This document shows positions 4,701-26,061 of a stretch of 33,642 bases of DNA, piece by piece. The position numbers and the translations under genes are program-made. The notes beneath the pieces are model-generated. The model did no database searches. It was not told the origin of the DNA and was given only the letters and a program-made list of their open reading frames with translations. The stretch's first letter is position 1, and each line of letters starts with the position of its first letter. Origin of the DNA: a virus; IMG/VR virus record IMGVR_UViG_3300034375_001611, positions 1 to 33,642 of that record. One strand, 5' to 3'.

Positions 4701-5394
4701 AGAAAAACTAAATAAATATTTTTCTGATTATGTTTCTGATGTTATTGGTGGATTTTTAACTCCACTTAGAATGTTTAATGATTTTATAGATCAGGATCAA
4801 GAGTTTAGAGCGCCTGTACCAACAGGTGAATTTTTAACTGATACAACTAACAGATTAAAATCAAGCATACCTATAGTAAGAGAACAATTGCCAGAACTAG
4901 AATCACCAACAAGGGAAGCTACACCTGGAAGACCAGATACAGTACAAATACCTTTTACAAATATTAATGTTCCAGGCCCTCTTACAAGACAGCTTACTGG
5001 TGCTACTGTAAGAGAAGAAAAGAATGCAGCAGAAAGAGAGTTTGATAGATTAGGATTTAAAAGAAGAGATATATTACCTTACTCTGGTAACGCTATTGTA
5101 GATCAGACAAGAGCAAAATATATGGGTAAACCTGTAGAGATAATGGTTGGCACTTTAGTTGAATCTGATTTTTATAAATCTAAAACTAATGCAGAAAAAG
5201 AATTGTTAGTAAGAAAACTTTTACAATCAATAAGAGGTTCAGCTAACGATTACATTAAAGAGAATAAAATAAACGAAGAAGCGTTCCAGAAAGCATCATT
5301 TAATAGACAGCCTAAATACATGAAAAAGTTATTAGCTGAAAAAGGTATTACTTGGAAAACATTTAATGACACGAGCAACGGAGAGAATAGGTAG
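1756..5394 (+). CDS. Very large internal virion / DNA-ejection-type protein
   Basis: I use ATG 1756 (1212 aa) rather than the in-frame TTG at 1741, which lies inside the upstream gene. The N-terminus carries a duplicated EFKIPPPP motif encoded by an exact 24-bp direct repeat. Residues ~160-265 contain two Gly/Ala-rich hydrophobic stretches (YVGIGTLGAGLLAREG and ATLGAGLGSVLGGTIGGG), candidate membrane-insertion segments. A Pro/Val/Thr linker follows (repeated TPKVET), then a long helical body and a C-terminal region. No enzymatic motif was recognised. Size, glycine-rich membrane-active segments and position at the end of the structural module match the large internal or ejection proteins of podoviruses (the role of T7 gp16 or P22 gp16), which enter the host with the DNA. 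The function is inferred from architecture, not from a conserved domain. Confidence 0.7.
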   Translation: MAEFKIPPPPQEEVNEFKIPPPPEANDITQQNIAANGFVLPPVPQKNKKLSEAELKENPEFIKAAKSIYEWNESRNFYFKLDDKPKKLNSDKQYADYALRYMGWFNYNIPKMAKEASDLKFNANQQQREDFVTLMDMYDNKEASLAGTGRLIKGLATDPSTYVGIGTLGAGLLAREGVKQTAKQGIKELVKEGAKQGAKIGAIEGAAYSTVDNALRQSARVMSGQQEGFELGQSAKAATLGAGLGSVLGGTIGGGASFVKNKNKVPVQADEMVGPIDMVGPRVETPTPKVETPVAPEVVTPKVETAKSKSTKIPEILKIPKKPKVRTARSYIEGGAISRDFARMGELKQILESDKGFITSKYLAPKNSRGFTDFDQIQEKMQEDGFLPELQTFDGGDTPDFTNRIIDDLQMDRVHQDDQLLLTRWEEQTEQARTIRQTLDDFNIDYRGMSDDDVLVTYNKVINNEIPPVRDEVPLGVYADDIAAAEGGNINKVKADDVTDTPDGKDFQTDTTTGLNQKVIDVGQEIIKELNIPVSKNVRISDQLKEAVLLANSSPKFFNQFVDILKRNDLTVEELSSVFKESISDSARRMQQLSTAKQSMKRMGQELGEIAPDEGWYANFAKEYTDIVRDLDNIRRGLLVSQIATAMRNNTAQIGRVGMHTLIEIFDDVLDITFNPLRKAFGAKPKKVDGAESFRLMMNLTKNKKQSAELTEFLTKYFVNESDRLFTKYASEVADSSKAKVFKSAQKMVDGLNTLNRIQEFWYRRGMFATSIQDTLSKKGIDIKDVGINDDLLKYLNASDIEKAVDDALYFTYAKTPDNKLLKGFVDFANSVPFITTGVFPFARFMANAIDFQFRHSPLGFLKLLTPSEHKKIAAGDSKAFSEAVVGTTILLATIEAKRKGSEDHKWYEVETSSGKTIDMRPYFPLTPYLFVADVVTRLESGRNWGDPKDILQALTGAQFRAGASSQLVQNILDGMVGLDTEEKLNKYFSDYVSDVIGGFLTPLRMFNDFIDQDQEFRAPVPTGEFLTDTTNRLKSSIPIVREQLPELESPTREATPGRPDTVQIPFTNINVPGPLTRQLTGATVREEKNAAEREFDRLGFKRRDILPYSGNAIVDQTRAKYMGKPVEIMVGTLVESDFYKSKTNAEKELLVRKLLQSIRGSANDYIKENKINEEAFQKASFNRQPKYMKKLLAEKGITWKTFNDTSNGENR
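1762..1824 (+). repeat. Exact 24-bp direct repeat encoding EFKIPPPP
   Basis: Copies lie at 1762-1785 and 1801-1824, offset by 39 bp (13 codons), with no mismatch. They encode the duplicated EFKIPPPP motif at the N-terminus of the ejection-type protein. Exact nucleotide identity suggests a recent tandem duplication or conversion rather than old protein-level repetition. Confidence 0.85.
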
Positions 5395-5845
5395 GAGTGG
5401 CGAATACCTAACTTGCTCCGTGATAGCAAGGGAAACCGATACTGTAACGATTATGCCTCATGGTTCTCATGCAGACATTATCTTTGAATACGATAACCAA
5501 ATGTATCGCTGTCAAGTCAAGACAGTTACTCATATAGAGAAAGCTAGAAATAGTTGGCGGTTTGATCTACGTAAAGGATCACATAGTAAGTCAAGACAGT
5601 ACAAAGAAAATACCATTGATGTATTCGCCTTGGTTAATCTTAAATACCAGAATGTTTACTTCCTACCTTTTAACAATTGCAAACACCTACAATATTCTGT
5701 ACATGACAAACCCATGAAAGCTGTTAATTCAATAGAGAGTTTTAAAGAGGCTATGGATGCAATAATTAACTCGGATCATACTCGGATGGGTATATCAGTC
5801 CATGACATACCTTTTGAAAAAGCTCAGGAATTAGCGGTTATTTAA
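5366..5845 (+). CDS. PD-(D/E)XK-family nuclease next to attP
   Basis: This 159-residue protein has the layout of a small PD-(D/E)XK nuclease (the Holliday-junction resolvase / group I intron endonuclease-like branch). GRSGEYL carries a helix glutamate at residue 13, ADIIF supplies Asp37, and CQVKT supplies the Q-x-K pair at residues 50 and 52. Basic residues follow. The ATG lies inside the end of the ejection-protein gene (29-bp overlap), so it is the last gene of the virion transcript. Its final ~25 codons contain the left pair of attP arm-type repeats (5768-5792), and the tRNA-like core begins 6 bp after its stop. The nuclease gene and attP therefore form one conserved block. A role in DNA processing or in excluding host or rival DNA is possible; no substrate can be read. 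Confidence 0.7.
   Translation: MTRATERIGRSGEYLTCSVIARETDTVTIMPHGSHADIIFEYDNQMYRCQVKTVTHIEKARNSWRFDLRKGSHSKSRQYKENTIDVFALVNLKYQNVYFLPFNNCKHLQYSVHDKPMKAVNSIESFKEAMDAIINSDHTRMGISVHDIPFEKAQELAVI
5768..5792 (+). other. attP left arm: paired arm-type integrase sites (inferred)
   Basis: Two direct copies of CTCGGAT start at 5770 and 5781, exactly 11 bp apart, and the second is followed by GGGTA. The whole 25-bp block matches the block at 6007-6031 at 21 of 25 positions in the same orientation. Between them lies the tRNA-derived core. Paired helically phased direct repeats on both sides of a core are the usual form of arm-type sites for tyrosine integrases. The block is also coding sequence of the nuclease gene. 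Confidence 0.65.
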
Positions 5846-5850
5846 CTGTT

Positions 5851-5877
5851 CGGGGAGTAGCGCAGCCTGGTAGCGCA
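5851..5877 (+). other. attP: attP core: 5' part of a tRNA-Pro gene (acceptor 5' strand plus D arm)
   Basis: The 27 nt read as tRNA positions 1-26: CGGGGAG (acceptor 5' strand), TA, then a D arm with stem GCGC, loop AGCCTGGTA and stem GCGC, then A26. This is the form of bacterial tRNA-Pro. After that the match stops (GAATATTTTTTAC), with no anticodon arm, T arm or acceptor 3' strand, so it is not a working tRNA gene. A tRNA fragment 170 bp upstream of a tyrosine integrase gene, flanked by paired repeats, is best read as the identity segment shared with attB. It is unusual in carrying the 5' part of the tRNA, because tRNA-derived attP cores usually hold the 3' part. An IHF-like sequence with two mismatches lies at 5907-5919. 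Confidence 0.8.
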
Positions 5878-5934: not shown

Positions 5935-5964
5935 TTGTTTTCTTTACAAGATTCAATTTATAAT
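5935..5964 (+). promoter_or_regulatory. Candidate integrase promoter
   Basis: TTGTTT (5935-5940) and a perfect TATAAT (5959-5964) are 18 bp apart. Transcription would start near 5971, giving a leader of about 75 nt before the integrase ATG. That leader contains the right arm-type sites, so integrase binding could repress its own gene. The -35 matches the consensus only in its first half. Confidence 0.4.
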
Positions 5965-18070: not shown

Positions 18071-18160
18071 ATGAAAGAGGTAATACGAGAAATCTTAGCA
18101 ATACTTAGCATTGGTGCTGTAGGCAACTTTGCAATATTTTTAATACTGGTGCATATATGA
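18071..18160 (+). CDS. 29-aa membrane peptide translationally coupled to TerL
   Basis: ATG 18071 with GGAG at 18061-18064 (6 nt) encodes MKEVIREILAILSIGAVGNF, then AIFLILVHI: one hydrophobic helix after a charged start. The stop overlaps the TerL ATG (ATGA), so its translation may feed TerL. The 178 bp before it (17893-18070) hold no gene. They contain a C7 run, a TACCCC/GGGGTA inverted repeat (17989-17994, 18013-18018) and a TATAAT without a -35 (17978-17983), possibly the packaging-site region. Confidence 0.55.
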   Translation: MKEVIREILAILSIGAVGNFAIFLILVHI

Positions 18161-19689
18161 AATACGGAGCAGAACAAGAGAAGCAATTAATGACCGAGAT
18201 ATGGTCGCCTTACATCAAAGACGATCCATATAACTTTGTAAAGTTTATCTTCCCTTGGGGAGAGAAGGACACCCCCCTTGAAGAGTTTGACGGCCCAAGA
18301 AAGTGGCAAGAAAAAATTTTAAAAAAAATGACAACACATATTCAACGTAACCAAGGTCGCGTTGATCCTGAAATGTTTAGATTAGCTGTAGCATCTGGAC
18401 GTGGTATTGGAAAGTCAGCACTTGTCTCCTGGCTAATCCTATGGATGCTATCAACACGCCTTGGCTCAACCATTATCGTAACTGCTAACACTGAACAACA
18501 GCTTAGATCAAGAACATGGGCAGAGCTAGGTAAGTGGCTAACCCTGGCAATTAACAATCATTGGTACACAAAAACAGCCACAACCATAAAACCTGAATCA
18601 TGGTTTGAAGAAGCACTTAAAAGAGATCTAAAAATAGATACAGGTTACTACTACGCCCAAGCACAATTATGGAGTGAAGAAAACCCAGATGCGTTTGCAG
18701 GAATCCACTCATCATACGGAGTATGTTTGATTATGGATGAAGCATCGGGTATTCCAGCTCCTATCTATTCTGTATCAGAAGGATTCTTTTCCGAGCCTAC
18801 TGAAAATCGTTTTTGGTTTACTTTCTCCAACCCTAGAAGAAACACAGGCCCGTTCTACGAGAGTTTTACATCCAAGCGTAAGTTCTGGAACTTAGAACAA
18901 ATAGACTCACGTACAGTAGAAGGTACTGACCAAAAACTATTCCAAACTATGCTAGAGCAATACGGTGAAGATTCTACCGTAGCTAGAGTAGAGGTACTTG
19001 GAGAGTTTCCAAACTCAGATGATGACTCTGTCATACCTATGGAGCTTGCACGTAACGCCATCAATAGAGATGTTTCGCTAACCGCAAAAGCACCTATCGT
19101 TTGGGGATTAGACGTAGCACGTTTTGGTGGCGATAATTCTGCACTATGTATAAGACAAGGTAATACTGTTTTTGAAATTAAGACTTTCAAATCAATGGAT
19201 TTAATGCAATTATGCGGTGCAGTTAAAAATTTGTTTGACGACTGCACAGTAATTGAAAGACCAGAAGAAATATTAATTGATGTTATTGGTCTTGGTAGTG
19301 GCGTAGTAGATAGACTCGCTGAACAAGGTTTACCCGTTAGAGGAGTTAACGTAGCCGAAGCACCAGCTACAAAAAAGAATTATTTAAACTTAAGAGCCGA
19401 GTTATGGTTCGCGATAAAAGATTGGCTGGCGCTGCGTAATTGCCGACTTCCTAGTGATGATGAGCTTGTATCAGAATTGGCAGCGCCCACCTACAAATAT
19501 ACATCAACAGGAAAAATAAAAATAGAGTCTAAAGACGAAATGAAAAAAAGAGGAATCAAATCACCTGACAAAGCAGATGCACTTGCATTAACCATGGCAA
19601 GTTCGGCTGCAAGTTTTAGTGGAGGAGAGAACTTTTTAGGGTATAATTTCAAAAAGCCATTGACAAGTAGAATAATACGAGTGGGATAA
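18157..19689 (+). CDS. terL: Terminase large subunit
   Basis: This 510-residue packaging motor has an N-terminal ATPase with Walker A ASGRGIGKSA (residues 79-88), Walker B VCLIMDEA (189-196, catalytic Glu195) and a coupling motif near FTFSNP (221-226). The RNase H-like nuclease follows, with acidic residues in WGLDVARFGG (Asp319), ILIDVIGLG (Asp375) and SPDKADALAL (Asp471/Asp474). Length and motif order are complete. It translocates DNA into proheads through the portal encoded next and cuts the concatemer. Translation is coupled to the upstream 29-aa peptide. Confidence 0.95.
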   Translation: MKYGAEQEKQLMTEIWSPYIKDDPYNFVKFIFPWGEKDTPLEEFDGPRKWQEKILKKMTTHIQRNQGRVDPEMFRLAVASGRGIGKSALVSWLILWMLSTRLGSTIIVTANTEQQLRSRTWAELGKWLTLAINNHWYTKTATTIKPESWFEEALKRDLKIDTGYYYAQAQLWSEENPDAFAGIHSSYGVCLIMDEASGIPAPIYSVSEGFFSEPTENRFWFTFSNPRRNTGPFYESFTSKRKFWNLEQIDSRTVEGTDQKLFQTMLEQYGEDSTVARVEVLGEFPNSDDDSVIPMELARNAINRDVSLTAKAPIVWGLDVARFGGDNSALCIRQGNTVFEIKTFKSMDLMQLCGAVKNLFDDCTVIERPEEILIDVIGLGSGVVDRLAEQGLPVRGVNVAEAPATKKNYLNLRAELWFAIKDWLALRNCRLPSDDELVSELAAPTYKYTSTGKIKIESKDEMKKRGIKSPDKADALALTMASSAASFSGGENFLGYNFKKPLTSRIIRVG

Positions 19690-19695
19690 AAATTT

Positions 19696-21837
19696 ATGGA
19701 ATATGATAAAGATATAGTTGAAGCATCAGAAGAACAACAAGAGTCTTATGATGTAGAAAAGCTACAAGGCTGTCTCAAGAGTGAGATGGATGACGCTAAA
19801 GACTTCATTGACCAAATTGGTGAACAAAGAGCAGACGCAACAGACTACTATCTAGGACAAGAACCTGGATCAACCTCATCACTACAATCAGAATTTGTAT
19901 CAACAGATGTTAGGGATAGCGTACTATTTATGCTTCCTTCCATCATGCGTACTTTTTTTGGTACTAGCAAGATAGTAGAGTTCATACCAAATGGCCCTGA
20001 AGACATACAACTTGCAACACAACAAACCGATTACATTAATTATGTCATACAACAAAAAAACCCTGGGTTTAAAGTTTTGTATGACGCTTTTAAAGATGCG
20101 CTGATTAGAAAAACTGGTTTTGTCAAAGCCTATTGGGATGACAGCATTACTGCATCAACACACGAATACACAAACATTTCACCTGAAGCATACCAAGCAC
20201 TCATACTTGATCCTAACGTAGAGGTAATTAAAGAGTCAGTTGAAATGCAAAGCATAACAATTATGAATCCTGAGACTGGTGAAGAGATGACGCAAGAAAC
20301 ACCAGCCAGTTACGACATTAAAATTAGAAGAATTAAACCTAAAGACCAAGTGGTTATCGAAGCAGTACCACCTGAAGAAGTTTTAATATCAAGAAACGCT
20401 AGAGACTTAGAATCATCACCCTACGTTGCACACCGCATGGTAAAAACTGTCAGCGACTTAGTTGCTATGGGTTATGACAAAGAAGAAATGGAACAATATG
20501 CTGGTTCTGGAAACTACATAGACGCTGAAAGCTATGACGAAGAACAAGCAAGAAATCCTTACGCTGATTATTCAGGCGTAGATAGAACTGATAAAAATAA
20601 TGTTCTCTATGTAGAGCATTATATTTTTTATGATTTAGATGGTGATGGTATAGATGAAAGGATTAGGGTATGCACCGTAGGCAATGGAATAAACATTGTT
20701 AACGCAACACCTTGGGATGATCTACCTATTACACTCTTCTGTCCCGATCCTGAACCACACACCTCCATTGGTTCATGTCCTGCGGACTACTTGATGCCTA
20801 TTCAAGCTGCTAAATCTCAAATTATGAGAGATACACTTGATAGTCTAGGCCACGCCATCTTCCCACGAATGGGTATTGTTGAAGGACAAGTTAATATTGA
20901 TGATGTTCTCAACACCGATATAGGACAACCAATTAGAATGCGTGCGCCAGGAATGGTTCAGCCTTTCGCTGTGCCTTTTGTTGGTAAAGAAGCATTCCCT
21001 GTACTCTCTTATCTTGACGAAGCCAAGGAGAACCGCACAGGCGTTTCTAAGGCATCCGCAGGATTAAACGCAGATGCACTACAATCTTCTACCGCACAAG
21101 CAGTATCAGCAACTATGTCTGGAGCGCAAGGCAGAGTAGAACTTATTTGCAGACACTTTGCAGACGGCATGAAAGATTTATTCAAACTGGTTAACTCACT
21201 TGTTATCAAGCACCAAGAAGGTCAAGATATGATGAGACTAAACAACGAGTTTGTCCCTATTGATCCAAGATATTGGGATGCTGATAAAGACTTAGTCATT
21301 AATGTTGGTATATCTAAATCTTCTGACGAAGAGAAGTTCCAAGTCTTAACAGCTTTATCACAAAAACAAGAACAAATTTTACAAACACTAGGCCCTGACA
21401 ATCCATTACTCAATTTACAGCAATACGCTAACACATTAACAAAAATGATTGAGATGGCTGGATTTAAAGATGCAAATTCATTTATAAACACAACAGTTCA
21501 ACCTATGCCACCACAGCAACCGCAAGACCAGAAACCTTCACCTGAAGAAATGTTGGCTCAAGCAGAAGCTATGAAAGCACAAAACTTAGCACAAAAAGCA
21601 ATCATTGATGCAGAAACAGACAGAATGAAAATTATCATGGATGACGATAGAAACCGTGATGAACATGAAGCTGATCTCAAACTGAAGACTGCTGAACTTA
21701 TAGCTAAGTATGGCGCACAGGTAGATGTAGCAGAGATTAACGCTATCATGGAAAGAGACAGAGAAGCCATGAGACAAGCAGCAAAGAATCAATCTCAAGG
21801 AATGTTTACAAATGGAAACAACCAACCAATCGGATAA
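19696..21837 (+). CDS. Portal protein (P22-like)
   Basis: The 713-residue length and pattern of P22/SU10-type portals are visible. There is an acidic N-terminus, the segment VSTDVRDSVLFMLPSIMRTF (residues ~68-87), and beta-rich wing and stem (PEEVLISRNARDL; VEHYIFYDLDGDGIDERIRV). The crown-side helices follow (FPVLSYLDEAKENRTGVSKA, typical of this family). The C-terminal ~130 residues form a long charged coiled coil (AQAEAMKAQNLAQKAIIDAE onward), matching the barrel of P22 portals. It forms the dodecameric ring that TerL docks to and the adaptor binds. It starts 6 bp after terL. Confidence 0.92.
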   Translation: MEYDKDIVEASEEQQESYDVEKLQGCLKSEMDDAKDFIDQIGEQRADATDYYLGQEPGSTSSLQSEFVSTDVRDSVLFMLPSIMRTFFGTSKIVEFIPNGPEDIQLATQQTDYINYVIQQKNPGFKVLYDAFKDALIRKTGFVKAYWDDSITASTHEYTNISPEAYQALILDPNVEVIKESVEMQSITIMNPETGEEMTQETPASYDIKIRRIKPKDQVVIEAVPPEEVLISRNARDLESSPYVAHRMVKTVSDLVAMGYDKEEMEQYAGSGNYIDAESYDEEQARNPYADYSGVDRTDKNNVLYVEHYIFYDLDGDGIDERIRVCTVGNGINIVNATPWDDLPITLFCPDPEPHTSIGSCPADYLMPIQAAKSQIMRDTLDSLGHAIFPRMGIVEGQVNIDDVLNTDIGQPIRMRAPGMVQPFAVPFVGKEAFPVLSYLDEAKENRTGVSKASAGLNADALQSSTAQAVSATMSGAQGRVELICRHFADGMKDLFKLVNSLVIKHQEGQDMMRLNNEFVPIDPRYWDADKDLVINVGISKSSDEEKFQVLTALSQKQEQILQTLGPDNPLLNLQQYANTLTKMIEMAGFKDANSFINTTVQPMPPQQPQDQKPSPEEMLAQAEAMKAQNLAQKAIIDAETDRMKIIMDDDRNRDEHEADLKLKTAELIAKYGAQVDVAEINAIMERDREAMRQAAKNQSQGMFTNGNNQPIG

Positions 21838-21994
21838 GATATACGATTTAGAATTTCTTGACGGAGATTTTATTTATGTTGGTTCGGACATTAAGGCTAA
21901 AAATTTAGAAGAAGCAAAAAGAGTCGCAATGGTCTTTTTACAAATACCACCAGGCTCAGAGCTAATATCTTGTAAGGAGACATTAATACACTAA
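21812..21994 (+). CDS. 60-aa small protein after the portal
   Basis: The ATG lies 26 bp inside the portal gene with AAGGAA upstream, and the stop overlaps the next ATG by one base. The product has a beta-type half (YDLEFLDGDFIYVGSDIKA) and a helical half (LEEAKRVAMVFLQI). It belongs to no family I recognise; tight coupling supports it. Confidence 0.65.
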   Translation: METTNQSDKIYDLEFLDGDFIYVGSDIKAKNLEEAKRVAMVFLQIPPGSELISCKETLIH

Positions 21995-22266
21995 TGGCAG
22001 TAACATATAGAGGCGAAAAGTTCGCTGGTTATAACAAACCTAAACGTACACCAAACCACAAAACAAAGTCACATGCTGTCTTAGCAAAAGTCGGTGACGT
22101 AATAAAATTAATTCGCTTTGGTCAACAAGGAGTTAGTGGTGCAGGTAAAAACCCAAAGTCTGCTAAAGATAAAGCTAGAAAAAAATCATTTAAAAAAAGA
22201 CACGCTAAGAATATCGCAAGAGGTAAGTTGTCACCAGCTTACTGGGCGAACAAAGTAAAATGGTAA
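21994..22266 (+). CDS. 90-aa basic conserved phage protein (DUF6321-like)
   Basis: This is a strongly basic protein with the pattern FAGYNKPKRTPNHKTKSHAV, LIRFGQQGVSGAG, KSFKKRHAKNI and LSPAYWANKVKW. I recall this set from a phage family (DUF6321-like) usually found near head genes; the function is unknown. High Lys/Arg content suggests DNA or RNA contact, perhaps as a minor packaged protein. It is coupled to its neighbour upstream, and the next gene has GGAG 6 nt before its ATG. Confidence 0.75.
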   Translation: MAVTYRGEKFAGYNKPKRTPNHKTKSHAVLAKVGDVIKLIRFGQQGVSGAGKNPKSAKDKARKKSFKKRHAKNIARGKLSPAYWANKVKW

Positions 22267-22276
22267 GGAGATAATT

Positions 22277-22414
22277 ATGCCAAAAGGACTATACGCAAAT
22301 ATAAACGCAAGAAAGAAAAAAGGAACAAGCAGATCAAAAAAGAAATCTACTATTTCTAAAAAAGCCTACGCCAACATGAAGGCTGGTTTTCCTAAAAAGA
22401 AAAAGAAAAAGTAA
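22277..22414 (+). CDS. 45-aa Lys-rich phage peptide (MPKGLYANINA type)
   Basis: ATG 22277 follows AAGGAG. The product starts MPKGLYANINARKKKGTSRS and ends in a run of lysines. Tiny proteins beginning MP(K/R)GLYANI occur widely in podovirus genomes next to head genes. About 40% of residues are Lys or Arg, so nucleic-acid binding is expected. Confidence 0.75.
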   Translation: MPKGLYANINARKKKGTSRSKKKSTISKKAYANMKAGFPKKKKKK

Positions 22415-22534
22415 TTGTTTGGTTGGCTTGATAAGTTTTTAGAGTGGTCGTTCCAACGACACGCAAACAAGCTACATAAAAAATATACACATGATAGACA
22501 AATTAATAAAACCTGTAAGCGAACTATTAGATAA
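22415..22534 (+). CDS. Possible 39-aa peptide overlapping the holin start
   Basis: A TTG-initiated frame directly after the previous stop reads MFGWLDKFLEWSFQRHANKL, then HKKYTHDRQINKTCKRTIR: amphipathic, aromatic and basic. There is no Shine-Dalgarno sequence. It fills a 76-bp gap and spans the holin start, which also lacks a Shine-Dalgarno sequence, so coupled translation is conceivable. Weak support. Confidence 0.3.
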   Translation: MFGWLDKFLEWSFQRHANKLHKKYTHDRQINKTCKRTIR

Positions 22535-22862
22535 GTTCATTCCAGATGCAGACACAAAGCAAAAGATAGCGCATGAAATCGCAACCATGTCGCAAAAGCA
22601 TATTCACGAAATTGCTAAAGCACAAATAGAAGTAAACAAAGAAGAAGCTAAAGGGAATTGGTTTCAATCTTCTTGGCGACCAGCTACAGCTTGGGTATGT
22701 GTATTTGGCTTTGCTATTAATTTTCTAATTAGTCCTCTCGCAGCTCCTTTTGGTATTGATATACCTCAAGCAGATACTTCAACAATGCTACCTGTACTTA
22801 TGGGTATGCTCGGTCTTGGAGGTTTACGATCATTTGAACGAGTAAAAGGCGTTGGAAAGTAA
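22491..22862 (+). CDS. Holin, 3TM (gene-transfer-agent) family
   Basis: This 123-residue protein has a helical charged N-terminus (residues 1-55). The conserved segment GNWFQSSWRPATAWVCVFGFAIN follows with a first membrane span (residues ~66-84), then a hydrophobic loop/second span (PLAAPFGIDIPQ) and a third (STMLPVLMGMLGLGGLRSFER). WRPATAW and the final GLGGLRSFER are diagnostic of the GTA_holin_3TM family. It makes the inner-membrane holes that start lysis. The next membrane protein overlaps its stop by one base. Confidence 0.85.
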   Translation: MIDKLIKPVSELLDKFIPDADTKQKIAHEIATMSQKHIHEIAKAQIEVNKEEAKGNWFQSSWRPATAWVCVFGFAINFLISPLAAPFGIDIPQADTSTMLPVLMGMLGLGGLRSFERVKGVGK

Positions 22863-23149
22863 TGAACCAAATAGCCAAAGTAGATGATAAATCTTCTTTA
22901 AGTATATCGCTTCCTTACCTTGCACAAATAGTAGTTGCTATATCTGTAGGAGTTTGGGGTTATGCCAACATTACCGAAAAGATAGATTCAAATGCACAAG
23001 AAACTAGAAACCTCAGAGGAAATCAAAACAATTATATTTTCCCAGACATTAGAACACTTGAGCAACAAGTAGTAGAATTAGAAAAGGAAGTGTTAATTTT
23101 AAAAACAGAAATAGAATTTTATAAAAAAGAAATAGAAAAAAAAGATTAA
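22862..23149 (+). CDS. Membrane-anchored coiled-coil lysis-cassette protein
   Basis: One span near the N-terminus (YLAQIVVAISVGVWGYANIT, residues ~19-38) is followed by a linker and a coiled coil of ~40 residues (EQQVVELEKEVLILKTEIEF). Membrane anchor plus periplasmic coiled coil is the plan of i-spanins (Rz) and some lysis regulators. Its place between holin and endolysin supports a lysis role, but the sequence alone does not show spanin function. Confidence 0.65.
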   Translation: MNQIAKVDDKSSLSISLPYLAQIVVAISVGVWGYANITEKIDSNAQETRNLRGNQNNYIFPDIRTLEQQVVELEKEVLILKTEIEFYKKEIEKKD

Positions 23150-23173
23150 GTTAATAGTAGGCGGTAATACAAG

Positions 23174-23545
23174 ATGAGTTGGAAAAATTTCAAAGAAGAA
23201 GAGTTTGCTTGCAAACATTGTGGTAAAAATGGTATTTCACACGAACTAATAAATAAGTTACAATCACTTAGAACAGAGCTGGGTTTTCCGTTTATTATTA
23301 CATCTGGTTACAGATGCGAAGAACATCCAATAGAAGCGCGAAAGAAAACTCCAGGAACTCATGCTGAAGGATTGGCTGCTGATGTATATGTAAGAGGAAG
23401 CAAAGCACTCGACATAGTATCAAAAGCTAAAGATTATGGATTTACTGGCGTTGGCGTAAATCAAAAAGGAGATGCTCGTTTTATACACTTAGACATCTCA
23501 GAAGAAAAAGAAAGCAGACCAAGGCCACACATTTGGAGTTATTGA
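23174..23545 (+). CDS. Endolysin, peptidase M15-type endopeptidase
   Basis: This 123-residue zinc peptidase of the M15_3 type has HAEGLAADV (His63, Asp70) and FIHLDI (His105) as zinc ligands, with ITSGYRCEEHP ahead of them. The N-terminal CKHCGK is common in this family. It lacks a signal peptide, so it needs the holin for export, and it cleaves peptidoglycan peptides (D-Ala or L-Ala-D-Glu type). The ribosome binding site is AGGCGGT. The stop overlaps the next ATG by one base. Confidence 0.9.
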   Translation: MSWKNFKEEEFACKHCGKNGISHELINKLQSLRTELGFPFIITSGYRCEEHPIEARKKTPGTHAEGLAADVYVRGSKALDIVSKAKDYGFTGVGVNQKGDARFIHLDISEEKESRPRPHIWSY

Positions 23546-23781
23546 TGGACAACCCTATATTATTTTGGAACGCGATTATCACACTCGTTTATGTTCCTAT
23601 GATCTATAGCATTCGCACCAATGCAGCAGATGTAAAAAGAGTTGAGATATTACTAAACAAAACAAGAGAAGAAATACCATCACGCTATGCAACCAAACAA
23701 GACTTGCATTTGGATATGAAAAGAATTTTTGATAGATTAGATAAATTAGACGAAAAAATTGACAAGCTAATAGCTAACTAA
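23545..23781 (+). CDS. Second membrane/coiled-coil protein of the lysis cassette
   Basis: ATG 23545 (78 aa) is preferred to the TTG at 23533, because GGAG lies 7 nt before it and the start overlaps the endolysin stop. There is one N-terminal span (NPILFWNAIITLVYVPMIYS) and then a coiled coil (KRIFDRLDKLDEKIDKLIAN). It may be a spanin-like partner, an antiholin or a second holin. Confidence 0.65.
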   Translation: MDNPILFWNAIITLVYVPMIYSIRTNAADVKRVEILLNKTREEIPSRYATKQDLHLDMKRIFDRLDKLDEKIDKLIAN

Positions 23782-23788
23782 AAAATAT

Positions 23789-24049
23789 ATGCCATCACAA
23801 GAAGATATACTAAACTCAAACGAAGCAGAGTTAATTCTTAACTCAGAAACATTCACACAAGCTGTAAACAATCTTAAAGAAGACTATATAAATTTATGGT
23901 TATTAACCAAAGATAGTGATATAGATAAAAGAGAAAATTTACACAAAGCAATAAAACTTTTACCCGAAATAGAAAAACATCTCAGAATAATAGTAGAGAA
24001 GGGTAAGATCACAAAGTCACAATTAGGAAGATTGCATAAAGTTGTGTAA
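23789..24049 (+). CDS. 86-aa helical protein before the scaffold gene
   Basis: This unrecognised, fully helical charged protein (SETFTQAVNNLKEDYINLWL; HKAIKLLPEIEKHLRIIVEK) sits 7 bp after the lysis cassette and before the scaffold gene. Between its stop and the scaffold lies an AT-rich 7-bp stem (24059-24077) followed by T-rich DNA, perhaps a weak terminator or processing site. Confidence 0.65.
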   Translation: MPSQEDILNSNEAELILNSETFTQAVNNLKEDYINLWLLTKDSDIDKRENLHKAIKLLPEIEKHLRIIVEKGKITKSQLGRLHKVV

Positions 24050-24100
24050 AATTTAATTTAGTATTGTTAAAATACTACTTTACATTTTTAAGGAATGAAT

Positions 24101-25102
24101 ATGACCAACAACGCAAAGCCGATTGGTTTACAAACAAATTTAGAACAGACAGAACAATCTTTCGAAAGTTTTTTGACTCCAGCGGAACAACCAGAAAACG
24201 AACTAGAAGAAACATCAGAAGAGCTAGTCAACCAAGACGAAGTCATTGAAGATGATGAAATCATTGAAGAAGACGTTGAATTAGAAGACGAACTTGAAGA
24301 AGATGAAGACGAACCTCAAGAAGATCAAGTAGAAGCAGAGGAGTCCGAGCAACCACAACTATATACTATTAAAGTAGATGGTGAAGATACCCAGGTCACG
24401 CTTGAAGAACTCCAAAACGGATACAGTCGCCAAAGAGATTATACGAGAAAAACTCAAGAGTTAGCTGAACAGCGTAAAGCTATTGAAGCTCAACAAAAAG
24501 AAATTTCTCAAAAAGATGCAATTTACTCACAGTTGTTACCAAAATTGGAAGCGACTTTGAAAGGCGAGTTAGAAAACGAGCCAGATTGGAATGCACTTTA
24601 TGACGCTGATCCTATTGCCTATGTCCGTGAAAAAGACTTATGGAATGAGAAGAAGCAAAGGTTACAAGCCGCACAAGACGAAGCTAACAGACTTCAACGA
24701 GAACAAGCTGAAAAGCAAAAGAAGGAGTTAGAAGAATTTGTCAAGTACGGTAACGAACAATTGCTAACACAAATTCCAGAATGGCAAGACAACGAAATAG
24801 CAGTTAAAGAAAAAAATGCTATTCGGGATTATGGTATAAATGTTTTAGGCTATTCATCTCAAGAGATGGACAGCGTTTACGACTACCGAGTTTTACTTGG
24901 TTTAAGAAACGCATGGCTACAACACAAAACCGTACAAGCTACTAAAGTCAAACCAACTGAAAAGAAAGCAGTTGCTCGTACTGCAAGACCTGGCACTTCA
25001 AACGTACCAAAAACAAAAACTCCTGTGAAGAGAGCGCGTCAAAAATTAGCTAAAACTGGAAAAGTCCAGGATGCGGCTAAACTATTTGAACAAATAATAT
25101 AA
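24101..25102 (+). CDS. Scaffolding protein
   Basis: I prefer ATG 24101 (333 aa): the AAGGA at 24090-24094 touches the first ATG (24095) but is 6 nt from this one. The N-terminal ~85 residues are extremely acidic (runs of Glu and Asp). The conserved segment LYTIKVDGEDTQVTLEELQNGYSRQRDYT follows, then a long coiled coil (residues ~120-215) and a basic C-terminus (KTPVKRARQKLAKTGKVQDA). Acidic N-terminus, coiled coil and basic capsid-binding C-terminus directly before the capsid gene define a scaffold. Confidence 0.85.
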   Translation: MTNNAKPIGLQTNLEQTEQSFESFLTPAEQPENELEETSEELVNQDEVIEDDEIIEEDVELEDELEEDEDEPQEDQVEAEESEQPQLYTIKVDGEDTQVTLEELQNGYSRQRDYTRKTQELAEQRKAIEAQQKEISQKDAIYSQLLPKLEATLKGELENEPDWNALYDADPIAYVREKDLWNEKKQRLQAAQDEANRLQREQAEKQKKELEEFVKYGNEQLLTQIPEWQDNEIAVKEKNAIRDYGINVLGYSSQEMDSVYDYRVLLGLRNAWLQHKTVQATKVKPTEKKAVARTARPGTSNVPKTKTPVKRARQKLAKTGKVQDAAKLFEQII

Positions 25103-25125
25103 ACTTTTAAACATAGGAAAATATC

Positions 25126-26061
25126 ATGGCTAAAGTAACAAACGCATTTGATACATACAGCGCGACTGCTGATAGAGAGCAACTAAGTGACGTTATTTAT
25201 AACATCTCTCCTCAAGCAACTCCGTTTATGTCTGCAATTGGAAAAAACTCAATTAAGAACGTAGTTTTTGATTGGCAAACAGAAAACTTACCTACTGCTT
25301 CAGGCGCAGGTCAACTAGAAGGTTTTGAACTTTCAAGATCAGCTTCTACAGCTACATCAAGAGTGAGTAACGTGGCTCAAATCTCATCAAGAGACGCAAC
25401 TGTGACTGGTTCACAACAAGCATCTGATCCTGCTGGCAAGAAGTCAGAAATGGCTCATCAGTTAGCTATCATGGCGAAGGCTCTGAAGAGAGATATGGAA
25501 GTGGCTCTTTGTCAAAAGAACCCAAAACAAACTGGTAATGCTACAACAGCAAGAACTACTGGTGGTTTTGAATCTTGGATTACTTCAAACGTATCAAGAG
25601 GAACTAACGGTGCTGGTAACGGTGGCGGTGCTGCTCCAACTGACGGAACACAAAGAGCTTTAACAGAAGCATTATTAAAGTCTGTATTACAGTCTTGCTT
25701 CTCTAATGGTGGCGAGCCTTCATTAGCAATCTGTGGCCCAGTTAATAAGCAAAAAATATCTGGCTTTACAGGTAGAGCTTCAGCTAGACAAATGATTGAT
25801 GCAAACACAGTAGAGGCTTCTGTTTCTATTTACGCATCAGACTTTGGTGAGTTGAAAATCGTTCCATCTAACTTCAGTAGAGAAAGATCACTTTTATTAG
25901 TTGATCCTGACTACGCTAAAGTATCATACCTAAGAGACTTCAAAACAGTTGATATCTCAACAATAGGTGATGCAGAAACTAAGATGATTGTAGCTGAGTA
26001 TGGATTAGAAATGAGCAACGAAGCTGCTCACGGTATAGTCGCAGACTTAACAACTTCATAA
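25126..26061 (+). CDS. Major capsid protein (SU10/DUF5309 family, HK97-like fold)
   Basis: This 311-residue protein matches the DUF5309 pattern: DREQLSDVIYNISPQATPFM, VFDWQTENLPTA, MAHQLAIMAKALKRDMEVAL, and LKIVPSNFSRERSLLLVDPD before the C-terminus. These are the N-arm, spine helix and A-domain regions of this HK97-fold subgroup. It follows the scaffold and precedes a strong UUCG hairpin, consistent with high late expression. Confidence 0.92.
   Translation: MAKVTNAFDTYSATADREQLSDVIYNISPQATPFMSAIGKNSIKNVVFDWQTENLPTASGAGQLEGFELSRSASTATSRVSNVAQISSRDATVTGSQQASDPAGKKSEMAHQLAIMAKALKRDMEVALCQKNPKQTGNATTARTTGGFESWITSNVSRGTNGAGNGGGAAPTDGTQRALTEALLKSVLQSCFSNGGEPSLAICGPVNKQKISGFTGRASARQMIDANTVEASVSIYASDFGELKIVPSNFSRERSLLLVDPDYAKVSYLRDFKTVDISTIGDAETKMIVAEYGLEMSNEAAHGIVADLTTS

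Follow-up and report, generated by a model that had tools for sequence, protein, structure and literature searches.

The window analyzed here is a 33,642-nt stretch of viral DNA, positions 1 to 33,642 of IMG/VR record IMGVR_UViG_3300034375_001611. We consider it likely that the phage is temperate, that positions 5851-5877 of the window form its attP core, and that it integrates into what looks like the only tRNA-Pro(TGG) gene of its SAR11-like alphaproteobacterial host, with CCTGG half-sites and TAGCGCA as the overlap, and that the tRNA is restored behind phage DNA. We are also inclined, with more reserve, to a wider reading. One integrase family would shift among tRNA genes, and between two sites of one tRNA that are 12 nt apart, by a CCTGG-N7 register kept in most members. 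It would be able to restore the tRNA starting from either side of the overlap, as with tRNA-Val, of which both the 5' half and the 3' half are used. The overlap of the window lineage would then be in the D arm, a fourth sublocation, and this lineage would take over transcription of what appears to be the sole tRNA-Pro of the host.

A conserved tRNA-Pro fragment beside the integrase gene

The sequence CGGGGAGTAGCGCAGCCTGGTAGCGCA occurs once in the window, on the plus strand, and 100 dinucleotide shuffles of the window gave no match to it even when 3 mismatches were allowed. It is identical at 27/27 positions to nt 1-27 of tRNA-Pro(TGG), which is present as a complete gene in SAR11-like genomes. 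The block contains the acceptor 5' strand, nt 8-9, the whole D arm and nt 26, and ends where the anticodon stem starts. It is an exact part of a host tRNA gene that includes one gene end, the 5' end, and a tyrosine integrase gene is adjacent. As shown in Table 1, the block lies in the space between a PDDEXK gene and the integrase gene, 6 nt past the stop codon of the former and 169 nt ahead of the start of the latter. ARAGORN found no complete tRNA in the window, and a DNA search of the att-integrase region against isolated phages gave no match.

Table 1. Features of the attachment and integrase region of the window
Feature	Position	Strand	Evidence
PDDEXK_5 endonuclease-like gene, always across att from the integrase gene	5366..5845	+	Pfam PF11645; homologues upstream of the integrase gene in all sub-clades tested
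Weak promoter-like TTGAAA-N18-TTATTT before the core	5814..5843	+	Shuffle p 0.38; partly conserved
Likely attP core, first 27 nt of host tRNA-Pro(TGG)	5851..5877	+	Exact host-gene match; kept in 46 contigs
CCTGG, presumed left integrase half-site (D-loop)	5866..5870	+	Register common with the tRNA-Glu core of L042; predicted function
TAGCGCA, presumed 7-bp strand-exchange overlap	5871..5877	+	Last 7 nt of the block, compare the loop in the Glu, Val and longer Pro blocks; predicted function
Promoter-like TTGTTT-N18-TATAAT before the integrase gene	5935..5964	+	Sequence; conserved in aligned relatives
Tyrosine integrase, 363 aa	6047..7138	+	Pfam PF00589, E 1.1e-13; invariant R, HxxR, H and Y aligned; tree

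The core was present exactly once per contig in 46 contigs, the window counted among them. In these contigs the mean column conservation was 0.991 in the core, compared with 0.71 and 0.75 in the two 54-bp flanks. The base 3' of the core was A, C or G among the contigs and C in the host, which makes the edge of the core sharp. Within the core, the D-loop varied in some members (CCTGG, TCTGG or CTTGG). A conserved core with diverging flanks beside an integrase gene is typical of an attachment core constrained to match a host gene. The exact host match and the 46-contig conservation bear out the original prediction that the 27-nt block is an attP-type core and that it is the 5' part of tRNA-Pro. 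Neither a crossover elsewhere nor a complete tRNA-Pro on a contiguous phage copy was encountered in this phage group.

Host gene and host assignment

The search of bacterial genomes that was suggested with the original prediction found the 27-mer continuing into a complete tRNA-Pro. The gene reads CGGGGAGTAGCGCAGCCTGGTAGCGCA-CCTGGTTTGGGACCAGG... and is a complete tRNA-Pro(TGG) of SAR11-like Alphaproteobacteria. The 38-nt tRNA-Glu block of a sister clade of phages had an exact match in only three GTDB genomes, one of which is labelled Pelagibacteraceae (NCBI order Candidatus Pelagibacterales), and the exact 27-mer was also found within a complete tRNA-Pro in 2 of these 3 genomes. In the order of that Pelagibacteraceae genome, 81 of 162 genomes carried the 27-mer in either D-loop variant, one copy each. 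Host genome G038 had a single tRNA-Pro among 30 of its 32 predicted tRNA genes that were read, with one more being a tRNA-Leu, and it had exact or near-exact sources for both the Pro and the Val blocks of these phages. The host tRNA-Pro(TGG) therefore looks single-copy, and for that reason it is probably essential. The G+C content, 36% in the phage versus 27-29% in the host loci, was counted against the host assignment. SAR11-like marine bacteria are probably the phage host. Should the group lysogenize, phage transcription would take charge of a proline tRNA that seems to be single-copy in these abundant marine bacteria.

Related phages carry parts of other tRNA genes

A related-integrase search of IMG/VR yielded 67 loci, and a second search gave further loci. 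Phages whose integrases were 72-100% identical to that of the window had a Pro block that stops at nt 26. In a clade with 50-54% integrase identity (L042, L108 and others) the block was nt 1-38 of a tRNA-Glu, and L084/L085, with about 45% identity, carried a tRNA-Pro block running through the anticodon loop. In L159, L161, L172, L195 and others the block was nt 1-38 of a tRNA-Val. L157/L158 instead had the 3' half of this tRNA-Val, GTTTACACCGAGAGG...CCACCA. The Glu, Val and Pro blocks were all in one orientation, between the PDDEXK gene and the integrase gene.

In the integrase tree, the 3'-type phages grouped with the 5'-type L084/L085 with full support. Because the 3'-type clade is placed beside a 5'-type one, polarity changed at least once, in a direction that depends on the root. 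The integrase family is characterized by 5' polarity, with one sister clade having the 3' half instead. With the crossover point fixed, the choice of the tRNA half that a phage rebuilds seems able to evolve. A 3'-half clade among 5'-half clades at the same tRNA-Val separates what the integrase needs, the overlap and half-sites, from what is added by selection acting on the tRNA, namely the half that is copied. The original prediction, which dealt with the 5' part of tRNA-Pro only, missed that the family also uses tRNA-Glu and tRNA-Val and that polarity can switch. The integrases of L045 and L042 agreed at 356 of 359 residues, and the core of L045 was the window-type Pro block, whereas that of L042 was tRNA-Glu. 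This pair is a natural experiment on how a phage changes its target gene.

Position of the crossover

The 5' and 3' blocks of tRNA-Val intersected only at (G)TTTACAC(C), the 7-nt anticodon loop with at most 1 base on each side, which places the crossover there. The Glu and the longer Pro blocks also ended with the anticodon loop (TTTTCAT and TTTGGGA, respectively), and each 5' block ended at the presumed 7-bp overlap. In a gapless alignment of L045 and L042, with nearly identical outer flanks, CCTGGT fell on CCTGGT and the blocks ended in one column. From the family rule and this common register, the crossover of the window phage is probably in the D arm, within the final 7 nt of the core; the anticodon-loop site of L084/L085 is 12 nt away. 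The original prediction was correct that the core stops at the anticodon stem, and it missed this placement of the crossover.

The host gene has the order CCTGG-TAGCGCA-CCTGG-TTTGGGA-CCAGG, with two sites 12 nt apart, and among the 30 tRNAs of G038 CCTGG was found only in tRNA-Pro, at nt 16 and 28. Judging from sequence, L084/L085 probably use the second CCTGG site and the window lineage the first. The CCTGG rule fails for tRNA-Val. An overlap on CCTGGT itself was also considered and was rejected because the intersection of the tRNA-Val 5' and 3' blocks puts the overlap on the next 7 nt.

The attP and its polarity could be the same with the overlap elsewhere in the core, that is, in the D-loop with the symmetric D stem (GCGC...GCGC) as half-sites. 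The D arm of the core does form a perfect inverted repeat, and the arms of tRNAs are preferred as sites (PMC8371274). However, the blocks of the relatives all end with the overlap, the register common to L045 and L042 is CCTGG-N7 and not the D arm, and the D-loop is the very part of the core that varies in some members, so we regard this placement as unlikely. Far less probable is a crossover in the anticodon loop with a window-lineage core that has decayed past nt 26. L084/L085 do use the anticodon loop of the same tRNA, but the overlaps of attP and attB must match, and nt 27-38 have no match and vary from one sub-clade to another, while every sub-clade keeps the sharp edge at nt 26. That the 27-mer is a captured piece of tRNA that serves another role, or a relic left by chance, would agree with an integration event not being observed for the window's group in the genomes searched, but it is hardly credible for a block kept beside the integrase gene in so many contigs, when sister phages have parts of other tRNAs at the same place, including the 3'-half form.

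Integration model and observed junctions

With TAGCGCA as the overlap, the integrase would probably bind CCTGG-type half-sites, and strands would be exchanged over these 7 bp between the D-loop CCTGG and the anticodon-stem CCTGG of the host gene. The phage would carry tRNA-Pro from its 5' end through the overlap. Integration would then give a complete tRNA-Pro behind phage DNA, on the PDDEXK side, and the host promoter would be left with a 27-nt fragment that reads towards the integrase gene. The restored tRNA-Pro may be transcribed from a phage promoter or by read-through of upstream genes. The PDDEXK_5 nuclease-like gene may work with the integration module.

Both junctions of a provirus were found in a distant GC-rich group of tRNA-Pro phages (L070-L093), on contig IMGVR_UViG_3300034072_001363. 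At attL (L083), the 5' fragment lay behind host DNA that included the end of another tRNA. At attR (L073), at the other end of the contig, a complete tRNA-Pro lay behind phage DNA, and L082 was the matching attP. Like the window, this group has a 5' core beside a tyrosine integrase gene; unlike the window, its integrase is only about 28% identical, its core runs through the anticodon loop, and the integrase gene is reversed in L083. These junctions show, in a distant provirus, that the topology of the original prediction, a restored tRNA-Pro behind phage DNA, is sound; for the window phage the same topology would be expected from its attP.

The phage-supplied promoter that the prediction also called for was not recovered at the core. 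In the 120 bp ahead of the core, the promoter score was no better than in shuffles (p 0.38, a weak test in A+T-rich DNA), a consensus scan showed no sigma-70 site adjoining the core, and a scan for terminator-like sites found none. Among the tRNA-Val relatives, most cases had TTGNNN-N17-TAAAAC-N8, which is near the host TTGTTT-N16/17-TATAAC-N9, with individual shuffle p values of 0.015 to 0.385 in this test, which is weak in A+T-rich DNA. In the GC-rich L070-L093, a conserved CCTAAGG-like element lay 12 nt before the tRNA, with TTGC about 17 nt further up. These elements could be a promoter or an integrase arm site. They were dropped as proof of a promoter before GC-rich 5' cores, because they are palindrome-like and could be such an arm site.

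No lysogen of the window's family was found in the host-order genomes (one 27-mer copy per genome), an absence that carries little weight, and the best integrase in that order was 26% identical to that of the window. Integrase matches at the class level were generic and profile-found, and were rejected as close kin. In GTDB contigs, a scan with two peptide patterns only gave no integrase relatives. Scans of viral contigs for junctions with a complete tRNA-Val or tRNA-Glu gave 0 matches, plus one complete tRNA-Glu, which was rejected as a junction of these phages since it starts with GTTCCC versus GACCCC in the phage core. Complete tRNA-Pro genes in viral contigs with a 5' flank matching no 5'-half core (e.g., L069, L077, L079, L086 and L091) were not counted as junctions.

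Comparison with known systems

The usual account of 3' cores is that the tRNA stays under its own promoter. Cores of 5' type are already known but rare. In Islander, 159 of 3,919 islands have a 5' tDNA fragment and 3760 a 3' fragment (PMC4383910), in agreement with the view from the outset that the 5' polarity is unusual. As in the window, the element in these 5'-fragment islands carries the 5' end of the tRNA; the restored gene lies behind element DNA (PMC4383910), as it would for the window phage. The Islander crossover classes are the anticodon loop, the T loop and the T/acceptor junction (PMC4383910); the window core, ending at nt 26 with the next bases mismatching the host, reaches none of the three.

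The att of pTN3-like archaeal integrases also matches the 5' half of a tRNA gene; a review describes expression of the recombinant tRNA from the promoter of the integrase and calls the 5'-half situation rarely encountered in bacteria (PMC8371274). In those elements att is part of the integrase gene, and integration splits that gene (PMC8371274), whereas the window core is upstream of an intact integrase gene that would be on the opposite side of att from the restored tRNA. In mycobacteriophage tRNA-dependent lysogeny, as would be the case here, the lysogen needs phage DNA for a working essential tRNA; however, the host tRNA is not rebuilt there and the phage brings a whole tRNA gene (PMC10865867), while the window phage has no complete tRNA gene and would rebuild the tRNA at the junction. 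The tRNA-Leu pelagiphages and cyanopodoviruses are likewise marine, with an integrase and a tRNA-matching att, and the former have SAR11 hosts, but their target is tRNA-Leu, and the available sections of these papers describe no 5' core of this kind (PMC6811365, PMC8776855). The nearest portal matches of the window phage are to phages other than these. Within the open-licence literature, we found no description of a D-arm overlap, of sliding between two CCTGG sites of one tRNA, of a target change at a near-constant integrase, or of the use of both halves of a single tRNA by one family.

Genes of the window and its relatives

At 18157-26061 the window, a genome of 33.6 kb, encodes an SU10-type portal and capsid proteins. 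The nearest portal matches were spring metagenome phages and Sinorhizobium phage phiM5, at up to 45% identity. A PDDEXK_5 gene was also present upstream of the integrase gene in L157, L159, L161, L195, L084, L108, L042, L213 and L229, and was kept both in the 3'-half type and in relatives without a detected tRNA fragment. L213, L229 and L231 had the integrase and the PDDEXK gene, with no tRNA fragment found in the part examined. L054 and L059, near relatives of the tRNA-Glu clade, have apparently lost the att region that separates the two genes. The tRNA-Val types L161, L172 and L195 had an extra small cysteine-containing ORF between att and the integrase gene, which was DUF1289-like by eye.
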